Shown here piece after piece: positions 41,267-47,200 of a DNA stretch of 64,000 nt. A program made the position numbers and the translations under genes. The stretch comes from Gigantopelta aegis (Eukaryota > Mollusca > Gastropoda > Neomphalida > Peltospiridae). The stretch is from assembly GCF_016097555.1 (NCBI RefSeq), contig NC_054704.1, forward strand, positions 93,112,653 to 93,176,652. Reading direction: 5' to 3'. The notes under the pieces are model-generated. The model was not told where the DNA came from. It made no database searches and worked only from the letters and a program-made list of their open reading frames with translations. Position 1 is the first letter of the stretch; each line of letters begins with the position of its first letter.

Positions 41267-44200
41267 CTGCAAAAAGAAAACACACCTCCAGTATATTATT
41301 TACATATAATAATAATGACACTAATAACAACTGATTAAATTCAAAAATATTCATAGGTGTCATAGCCATTTTGATAAAAAGAAAATCACTTAATTTTACA
41401 CATAGTTTGTACAGGGTTCCCAAAAATACACCTACCGTTTGTACTGGGTGTCTGAAATACACCTACCATTTGTACTGGGTGTCTGAAATACACCTATCGT
41501 TTGTACTGGGTGTCTGAAATACACCCACCGTTTGTACTGGGTGTCTGAAATACACCTACCGTTTGTACTGGGTGTCTGAAATACATTTACAGTTTGTACT
41601 GGGTGTCTGAAATACACTTGCTGTTTGTACTGGGTGTCTGAAAATACACTTACCGTTTGTACTGGGTGTCTGAAATACACTTACCGTTTGTACTGCGTGT
41701 CTGAAATACACTTACCGTTTGTACTGGGTGTCTGAAATACACTTATCGTTTGTACTGTGTGTGTGTGTGAAATACACTTACTGTTTGTACTGCATGTGTG
41801 AAATACACTTACCGTTTGTACTGGATGTCTGAAATACACTTACCGTTTGTACTGGGTGTCTGAAATACACCTACTGTTTGTACTGGGTGTCATAAATACA
41901 CCTACCGTTTGTACTGGGTGTCTGAAATACACGTACCGTTTGTACTGGGTGTCTGAAATGCACTTACCGTTTGTACTGGGTGTCTGAAATGCACTTACCA
42001 TTTGTACTGGGTGTCTGAAATCCATTTACCGTTTGTACTGGGTGTCTGAAATCCACTTACTGTTTGTACTGAGTGTCTGAAATACACCTACCGTTTGTAC
42101 TGGATGTCAGAAATACATTTACCGTTTGTACTGGGTGTCTGAAATACACCTACCGTTTGTACTGGGTGTCTGAAATACACCTACCGTTTGTACTGGGTGT
42201 TTGAAATCCACTTACCGTTTGTACTGGGTGTCTGAAATCCACTTACTGTTTGTACTGGGTGTCTGAAATCCACTTACCGTTTGTACTGGGTGTCTGAAAT
42301 ACACCTACCGTTTCTACTGGATATCAGAAATACACCTACTGTTTGTACTGGGTGTCTGAAATACACTTACCTTTTGTACTGGGTGTCTGAAATACATTTA
42401 CCGTTTGTAGTAGGTGTCTGAAATACACTTAACCTTTGTAGTGAGTGTCTGAAATACACTTACCATTTGTACTGGGCATCTGAAATACAATAACTGTTTG
42501 TACTGGATGTCTGAAATACATTTACCGTTTGTACTGGGTGTCTGAAATACACCTACCATTTGTACTGGGTGTCTGAAATACACCTACCGTTTGTACTGGG
42601 TGTCTGAAATACACCTACCGTTTGTACTGGGTGTTTGAAATCCACTTACCGTTTGTACTGGGTGTCTGAAATCCACTTACTGTTTGTACTGGGTGTCTGA
42701 AATCCACTTACCGTTTGTACTGGGTGTCTGAAATACACCTACCGTTTCTACTGGATATCAGAAATACACCTACTGTTTGTACTGGGTGTCTGAAATACAC
42801 TTACCTTTTGTACTGGGTGTCTGAAATACATTTACCGTTTGTAGTAGGTGTCTGAAATACACTTAACCTTTGTAGTGAGTGTCTGAAATACACTTACCAT
42901 TTGTACTGGGCATCTGAAATACAATAACTGTTTGTACTGGATGTCTGAAATACATTTACCGTTTGTACTGGGTGTCTGAAATACACCTACCATTTGTACT
43001 GGGTGTCTGAAATACACCTACCGTTTGTACTGGGTGTCTGAAATGCACTTACCGTTTGTACTGGGTGTCTGAAATCCACTTACCGTTTGTACTGGGTGTC
43101 TGAAATCCACTTACCGTTTGTACTGAGTGTCTGAAATACACCTACCGTTTGTACTGGATATCAGAAATACACCTACCGTTTGTACTGGGTGTCTGAAATA
43201 CACCTACCGTTTGTACTGGGTGTCTGAAATCCACTTACCGTTTGTACTGGGTGTCTGAAATCCACTTACCGTTTGTACTGGGTGTCTGAAATACACCTAC
43301 CGTTTGTACTGGATATCAGAAATACACCTACCGTTTGTACTGGGTGTCTGAAATACACTTACCTTTTGTACTGGGTGTCTGAAATACATTTACCGTTTGT
43401 AGTAGGTGTCTGAAATACACTTAACCTTTGTAGTGAGTGTCTGAAATACACTTACCATTTGTACTGGGCATCTGAAATACAATAACTGTTTGTACTGGAT
43501 GTCTGAAATACATTTACCGTTTGTACTGGGTGTCTGAAATACACCTACCATTTGTACTGGGTGTCTGAAATACACCTACCGTTTGTACTGGGTGTCTGAA
43601 ATGCACTTACCGTTTGTACTGGGTGTCTGAAATCCACTTACCGTTTGTACTGGGTGTCTGAAATCCACTTACCGTTTGTACTGGGTGTCTGAAATCCACT
43701 TACCGTTTGTACTGGGTGTCTGAAATACACCTACCGTTTGTACTGGATATCAGAAATACACCTACCGTTTGTACTGGGTGTCTGAAATACACTTACCTTT
43801 TGTACTGGGTGTCTGAAATACATTTACCGTTTGTAGTAGGTGTCTGAAATACACTTAACCTTTGTAGTGAGTGTCTGAAATACACTTACCATTTGTACTG
43901 GGCATCTGAAATACAATAACTGTTTGTACTGGATGTCTGAAATACATTTACCGTTTGTACTGGGTGTCTGAAATACACCTACCATTTGTACTGGGTGTCT
44001 GAAATACACCTACCGTTTGTACTGGGTGTTTGAAATGCACTTACCGTTTGTACTGGATATCAGAAATACACCTACCGTTTGTACTGGGTGTCTGAAATAC
44101 ACTTACCTTTTGTACTGGGTGTCTGAAATACATTTACCGTTTGTAGTAGGTGTTTGAAATACACTTAACCTTTGTAGTGATTGTCTGAAATACACTTACC

Positions 44201-47200
44201 ATTTGTACTGGGCATCTGAAATACAATAACTGTTTGTACTGGGTGTCTGAAATACACTTACCGTTTGTACTGGGTGTCTGAAATACACTTACCGTTTGTA
44301 CTGCATGTGTGAAATACACCCACCGTTTGTACTGGGTGTCTGAAATACACTTACCGTTTGTACTGGGTGTCTGAAATACACTTACCGTTTGTACTGGGTG
44401 TCTGAAATGCACTTACCGCTTGTACTGGGTGTCTGAAATGCACTTACCATTTGTACTGGGTGTCTGAAATCCACTTAACGTTTGTACTGGGTGTCTGAAA
44501 TGCACTTACCGCTTGTACTGGGTGTCTGAAATGCACTTACCATTTGTACTGGGTGTCTGAAATCCACTTAACGTTTGTACTGGGTGTCTGAAATCCACTT
44601 ACTGTTTGTACTGAGTGTCTGAAATACACCTACCGTTTGTACTGTATATCAGAAATACACCTACCGTTTGTACTGGGTGTCTGAAATGCACTTACCGTTT
44701 GTACTGGGTGTCTGAAATCCACTTACCGTTTGTACTGGGTGTCTGAAATCCACTTACCGTTTGTACTGGGTGTCTGAAATCCACTTACCGTTTGTACTGG
44801 GTGTCTGAAATACACCTACCGTTTGTACTGGATATCAGAAATACACCTACCGTTTGTACTGGGTGTCTGAAATACACTTACCTTTTGTACTGGGTGTCTG
44901 AAATACATTTACCGTTTGTAGTAGGTGTCTGAAATACACTTAACCTTTGTAGTGAGTGTCTGAAATACACTTACCATTTGTACTGGGCATCTGAAATACA
45001 ATAACTGTTTGTACTGGATGTCTGAAATACATTTACCGTTTGTACTGGGTGTCTGAAATACACCTACCATTTGTACTGGGTGTCTGAAATACACCTACCG
45101 TTTGTACTGGGTGTTTGAAATGCACTTACCGTTTGTACTGGATATCAGAAATACACCTACCGTTTGTACTGGGTGTCTGAAATACACTTACCTTTTGTAC
45201 TGGGTGTCTGAAATACATTTACCGTTTGTAGTAGGTGTTTGAAATACACTTAACCTTTGTAGTGATTGTCTGAAATACACTTACCATTTGTACTGGGCAT
45301 CTGAAATACAATAACTGTTTGTACTGGGTGTCTGAAATACACTTACCGTTTGTACTGGGTGTCTGAAATACACTTACCGTTTGTACTGCATGTGTGAAAT
45401 ACACCCACCGTTTGTACTGGGTGTCTGAAATACACTTACCGTTTGTACTGGGTGTCTGAAATACACTTACCGTTTGTACTGGGTGTCTGAAATGCACTTA
45501 CCGCTTGTACTGGGTGTCTGAAATGCACTTACCATTTGTACTGGGTGTCTGAAATCCACTTAACGTTTGTACTGGGTGTCTGAAATGCACTTACCGCTTG
45601 TACTGGGTGTCTGAAATGCACTTACCATTTGTACTGGGTGTCTGAAATCCACTTAACGTTTGTACTGGGTGTCTGAAATCCACTTACTGTTTGTACTGAG
45701 TGTCTGAAATACACCTACCGTTTGTACTGTATATCAGAAATACACCTACCGTTTGTACTGGGTGTCTGAAATACAATAACTGTTTGTACTGGGTGTCTGA
45801 AATACACTTACCGTTTGTACTGGGTGTCTGAAACACTTACCATTTGTACTGGGCATCTGAAATACACTTACCGTTTGTAGTGGTTGTCTGAAATACACTT
45901 ACTGTTTGGACTGGGTGTCTGAAATACACTTACCGTTTGTACTGGATGTCTGAAATACACTTACCGTTTATATTGGGTGTCTGAAATACACTTACTGTTT
46001 GGACTGGGTGTCTGAAATACACTTACCATTTGTACTGGGTGTCTGAAATACACTTACCATTTGTATTGGGTGTCTGAAATACACTTACTGTTTGGACTGG
46101 GTGTCTGAAATACACTTACCGTTTGTACTGGGTGTCTTAAATACACTTACTGTTTGTACTGGGTGTCTGAAATACACTTTTCATTTGTACTGGGTGTCTG
46201 AAGTACACTTACCGTTTGTACTGGGTGTCTAATAGTACACTTTTCATTTGTACTGGGTGTCTGAAATACACTTACCGTTTGTATTGGGTGTCTGAAATAC
46301 ACTTACCGTTTGTACTGGGTGTCTGCACTAGCTGAATCTACTCTGTGAACTGGTTTACTGTGCTGTAACAGCTCAGACACCTGCAGGCAAAACAGATTAA
46401 TGAGACAATTGCTGTAACAAAATCACAGGACATTCTAATTCAACACATGTGAACGCAACAAGTCTGATTAGATCTCTACTACAATTTCAGGGTAGTGTTA
46501 TTGGCAATCCGTTAGCAGAGCCAATAAAACTGGAAGTTTGTGCCAGTAAAACCACGTCCACAAATCGAAAAACACAATAGGGCTATTTAAACTTTTTAAA
46601 TTTTCTTTTTCTGAAAATATAAGTGTAAACAAGCATGAACATTTTAAGGTTTTAATGAGCAAACTTCCCCTCTGAACAAATAAATGGAATTAATATGCCA
46701 GGATTATATTTTTGGATATAACTAAATTATTGATGGTACATGTATATATTTTTTAAGTTTCTTACATTGCTACTAAAGTTATATAGCTGGCAGGTTTGTA
46801 AATACAATGAAAAGCACAGACCTCACTGCTTCGCTGAATAATGGTCTGAGGAAGACCGGCTTGTGTGGCGACATGTAAGGCGTAGCTGGACGCAGTGTGA
46901 CCTTCGACCAGCTGGTACAGGAAAACCAGCTCCTCACCATTGTGCATGCAGTCCATCGTCTGTTAAAAACAAATATACACTGTCAGTACGATCATGTTAG
47001 GAGAAATAGAGATTACCACTATAGTCCGTCCCACATGGAACATCTTTTTTTATACTATGGAATTTACTATAAGTTATTTATTTTGAACCGATTGATTTCT
47101 AAATCACCCACAAAAATAGTATTTTTTTTATTACTTCCAAAATACTTTACTTTTCTTCTTACGTCAAACCAAACTGAAATTATTTACAAAAAAACAAACA

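Follow-up and report, generated by a model that had tools for sequence, protein, structure and literature searches.

A 31-bp tandem array spanning a splice junction in the last MSH5 intron of the vent snail Gigantopelta aegis

How is an intron removed correctly when the end of the preceding exon, together with its donor, is repeated over most of the intron's length? This question is raised by MSH5 of the hydrothermal-vent (deep-sea) snail Gigantopelta aegis, studied here in a window of 64,000 nt (NCBI RefSeq assembly GCF_016097555.1, contig NC_054704.1, positions 93,112,653 to 93,176,652; coordinates below are those of the window). The locus offers a natural test of how a donor is chosen, as one exon is followed by 142 in-register GT dinucleotides, 41 of them within the 9-mer of the true donor (the true one counted), and MSH5 must nonetheless make its conserved C-terminus. 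RNA from the array would show what decides: the exon edge, the order of transcription or the strength of the donor. The reading favoured here, which we consider likely, is a minisatellite that arose at the splice junction itself, with the first donor in use and the remaining donor-like sites as drifting decoys.

Regarding the gene model, a protein search with the ORF pieces of the window gave 3417 matches; the best of them, and the single G. aegis MSH5 protein among the 120 listed, is P0001 (NCBI). The MSH5 exons in the window cover its residues 225-876 (its end), and the mismatches are confined to alignment ends that run into introns. The script spelled 17 of the 21 junctions exactly, the last junction included, the other four having no exact spelling. 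One of the 17 uses a GC donor at 53192 that was distrusted and left out of the donor comparison (n=15 other donors), while its acceptor was kept in the acceptor comparison (n=17). The end of the gene is organised as follows:

46307..46380, minus strand: penultimate MSH5 coding exon, 74 nt; its final 16-19 nt most likely gave rise to the repeat unit (exact P0001 match; gap-free orthologue alignment)
41267..46306, minus strand: last MSH5 intron, 5040 nt, phase 2 (exact P0001 spelling from 46307 to 41266)
41161..41266, minus strand: last MSH5 exon, coding for the 34 residues that follow R842 and for the stop, acceptor TTTTTGCAG followed by ATG (P0001)

The first-pass annotation had taken 46380-46307 as a real MSH5 exon, and this is borne out by the exact match to P0001 across the junction and by 32 animal MSH5 proteins, picked from the 120 listed matches and ranging from sponge to skate, all of which (32/32) align over the last junction without a gap. 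The exon part ends in KR in 19/32 and in QYKR in 6/32, and the exon end of Mytilus, DTQYKR, is identical to that of G. aegis. The 34-residue C-terminal tail is likewise conserved, aligning gap-free in 32/32 proteins, and the earlier suggestion that a short tail makes the array tolerable is not supported.

The array was described by TRF, by wrap-around alignment of its units on the minus strand and by lag analysis:

41424..46325, minus strand: 158 tandem units of 31 bp at the 5' end of the last MSH5 intron, with higher-order (block) duplications among them (TRF, unit alignment, lag analysis)
46292..46322, minus strand: unit 1, which equals the array consensus and holds the true donor ACG/GTAAGTG (after 46307; alignment, P0001)
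46261..46291, minus strand: unit 2, one change from the consensus, true-donor 9-mer kept; the first decoy, with +1 at 46275 (alignment)
41397..41419, minus strand: one more, degraded unit, closing the array on its 3' side (wrap-around alignment)

TRF gives a period of 31 with 158.0 copies, 89% matches and a score of 7475, and the alignment gives 158 units plus the degraded copy, so that the array of roughly 157 units first reported for the last MSH5 intron is confirmed. The units have a mean identity of 93.3% to the consensus (12/158 exact), are 31 bp long in 152/158 cases and fall into 55 distinct types in an ordered pattern. The consensus fits the proposed structure, in which 16 nt come from the end of the exon and 15 nt from the start of the intron. 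This division is ambiguous, because ACACCC has a CAG in front of it in the exon and again where each typical intron part ends; the split may equally be 16+15 or 19+12, the former being one among several equal registers. Similarly, unit 1 does span the true donor, but the array does not begin at the exon edge 46307, as it reaches 46325, inside the exon.

A unit running from an exon end through the adjoining donor is known from the human CBS 31-bp VNTR, c.1444_1467+7(16_21), with 24 exon and 7 intron nt, 16-21 copies, and units of 31 bp differing by single substitutions (PMC2630376). The MSH5 array shares this architecture, the first copy lying at what is, at the protein level (P0001 and orthologues), the functional exon edge; the common unit length of 31 bp is presumably a coincidence. 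The differences are the copy number (158 against 16-21), the division of the unit (16+15, or 19+12, against 24+7), the gene and the animal, and the block structure of the MSH5 array, of which the accessible portion of the CBS article makes no mention. Alternative use of the repeated donors in RNA has reportedly been seen for the CBS VNTR. Reduced CBS activity with the VNTR was reportedly found by Lievers in 2001. Among titles and opening lines of abstracts, nothing closer than the CBS VNTR was found, and since subscription work lies largely outside that scope this absence proves little. In earthworm metallothionein genes, intronic minisatellites lie inside the first intron, and the accessible text mentions no crossing of an exon edge (PMC12783039). 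Tandem genomic duplication can also generate splice sites and lead to intron gain (PMC4974935); in that case a new intron arises, whereas the MSH5 array sits inside one intron whose flanking exons both join exactly to P0001, an existing intron being merely lengthened. Thus, the statement that no case at this copy number had been described holds for the literature searched, but the architecture itself is already known, and it is the copy number of the MSH5 array that is extreme.

Concerning the donors, GT is in register in 142 of the 158 units. The true donor's 9-mer, ACGGTAAGT, is present in 41/158 units, unit 1 included, and the next commonest, ACGGTAGGT, in 29; donor-like sites are dense, as first described, although the claim that each typical unit carries ACG/GTAAGTG was too strong. 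In 67/158 units at least 7 of the 9 positions agree with the U1 consensus; the density of such sites is 13.7 per kb in the array and 1.1 per kb in the remainder of the gene region. The predicted pairing of 110/158 array donors with U1 is at least as strong as the median of the 15 other MSH5 donors, making real leakage plausible. An antisense transcript of 41424-46325, from the plus strand, would presumably carry many ACTTACC motifs resembling the 5' end of U1.

There is no sign of selection to keep the array donors, as GT is kept in 47/55 unit types against 47.0 expected under random placement. Substitutions fall in the donor 9-mer in 59/128 cases against 37 expected, a value reached in 0/2000 simulations with the unit types treated as independent. 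When each variant is counted once, the excess is 16/39 and not significant (p=0.11), and it is 11/34 (p=0.31) when the CpG columns are also removed. Donor decay was consequently rejected as a claim, the absence of conservation alone being kept. The last two exon bases are CG in 98 of the 158 units, TG in 23 and CA in 22, and part of the 9-mer excess looks like CpG decay at these positions.

The coding outcome of a decoy is uniform. All later GT donors (141/141) lead to a stop directly after R842 and to loss of the 34-residue tail, because the exon runs on into the first four bases of the intron to read CGG TAA; full retention of the last intron ends at the same stop. The frame shift that had been expected for the last exon does not arise with a later donor, since translation never gets that far. 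AG is retained in 135/158 units, but the pyrimidine content from -20 to -5 (16 nt) is low at these array AGs (n=135; mean 0.37, maximum 0.50) compared with the 17 gene acceptors (mean 0.71, minimum 0.50). The acceptor matrix scores overlap (array mean 2.0, maximum 7.3; gene mean 7.5, minimum -1.3), and single mini-exon events within the array are thus possible, as judged from these scores. When 0 to 6 consensus mini-exons of 16 nt were tried, the true C-terminus was preserved only with multiples of three. Divergence over the units is alike in the part derived from the exon and the part derived from the intron (0.064 and 0.070 per site), which shows no coding constraint, and a coding array was rejected; the proposed chain of mini-exons is not supported, given this lack of extra conservation and the weak pyrimidine tracts. 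The poly(A) signals AATAAA and ATTAAA occur 0 times in the last intron, whereas the remainder of the gene region (46381-63978) has 49; this was rejected as evidence of U1 protection, since a single founder unit devoid of signals explains the absence. The fold of one 310-nt stretch of array RNA was less stable than 60 shuffles (z = +1.4) and gives no hint of structure.

As for the origin of the repeat, it might be a dispersed satellite that inserted at the exon edge, in a genome that is rich in repeats (64.17%; PMC7736800) and a window where TRF found further minisatellites. However, the exon part of the unit codes for old, conserved protein sequence, with residues common to Mytilus and other molluscs, and the window outside the array holds no other long match to the unit: among the top 19 of 547 permissive matches, the best are an exact stretch of 11 nt and one of 14 nt at 93%. 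Both points are hard to reconcile with insertion, which is considered highly improbable. Because the exon end QYKR is common to distant molluscs, the direction from exon to array is strongly suggested, so that the repeat would have come from the MSH5 exon and not the reverse. An exact 36-mer had no match in viral contigs, which is uninformative for snails. Another explanation is that the copy number was inflated or homogenised by assembly, and the lag analysis gives it some ground, as a run of 1121 bp is perfectly identical when the array is shifted by 35 units. Together with an identical run of 486 bp at a 14-unit shift, it also shows that the array grew in blocks; the runs mean recent block duplication, or homogenisation, or partly an assembly effect. 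The published Hi-C assembly of G. aegis, likely the source of the window, was built with PacBio, Canu, wtdbg2, Racon and Pilon (PMC7895826), and long-read assembly with short-read polishing, if the window does come from it, would leave room for such an effect. Nevertheless, the minimum read length in Canu was 8000, enough to span 4.9 kb, and the 55 unit types stand in order, making an assembly effect unlikely.

With regard to function, the row of donors could be a regulatory device, in which competition for U1 toggles between full-length MSH5 and an 842-residue form (or nonsense-mediated decay, NMD), tuned by the copy number. It would fit with the one identical truncated protein from 141/141 later donors, with the high density of U1-like sites (67/158 units; 13.7 against 1.1 per kb) and with the reported association of CBS activity with copy number (Lievers 2001), but a device of this kind is at odds with donors that are under no visible selection, their GT being retained just as in random expectation, and with substitutions concentrated in the donor 9-mer (59/128 against 37 expected; once per variant 16/39, p=0.11). 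We therefore regard such a device as quite unlikely. A more specific form, slightly less probable again, is a length-dependent splicing rheostat of about 158 donors, where an array length altered by recombination would set the MSH5 dose through the 842-residue form or NMD; if true, array length would tune a meiotic crossover gene.

Returning to the minisatellite born at the junction, we infer a founder event at the edge of the MSH5 exon: a 31-bp tandem duplication across the end of the penultimate exon would have copied the donor into the intron, possibly primed by the CAG (a 3-nt match) on either side. The copies may then have multiplied by slippage or unequal exchange, partly in blocks of tens of units, to about 158. 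Splicing would still join 46307, the sole donor abutting a complete exon, to 41266, and on the protein model and homology 46307 is most likely the donor used in RNA. Early commitment to the donor that is made first is possible, and later sites could compete too. Exon definition likewise favours the first donor. A leak into a later donor would end translation at the TAA after R842, giving truncation or NMD; since any leak would have this effect, the array would be tolerated only while leakage is low, and it is probably neutral or mildly costly.

A second junction-spanning array lies in the neighbouring gene MFSD14/HIAT1:

9772..10284, minus strand: tandem array across a splice junction of MFSD14/HIAT1, with 4 copies of the acceptor and a unit of 146 bp (TRF, P0121)

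This array multiplies an acceptor along with the initial 67 nt of its exon, the acceptor copies standing at 10263, 10117, 9984 and 9838 (spacing 146/133/146). The protein P0121 fits the exon 9838-9741, the sole complete one in the array, and read-through from the other three copies leads to a stop three residues after ISAF. For MSH5 as for MFSD14, the protein agrees with the splice site that belongs to the complete exon. A parallel to the MFSD14 array is the splice-junction duplication human CBS 844ins68, a duplicated intron 7/exon 8 junction where one of two sites is strongly favoured, giving normal mRNA (PMC2630376); it differs in being a single duplication, and the named junction would place it on the acceptor side, though the same article speaks of a donor. 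The MSH5 and MFSD14 arrays suggest that tandem duplication may repeatedly capture splice junctions in the genome of G. aegis.

The two genes adjoin on one strand (4524-63978). The MSH5 model of Batillaria, P0019, ends in MFSD14-like sequence, and the MSH5 and MFSD14 models of Solemya are numbered consecutively (006124, 006125); the pair looks conserved in molluscs. A further array at 28943-30425, with a 78-bp unit in 19 copies at 98% match, has on the plus strand a 517-residue open frame of 26-residue repeats; with its position between the exons at 38921 and 20035, the first two identified for MFSD14, it is probably intronic. Long minus-strand frames are also present at 6438-7547 (370 codons) and 23533-24501 (323 codons), which we take to resemble transposases of the Tc1/mariner type.
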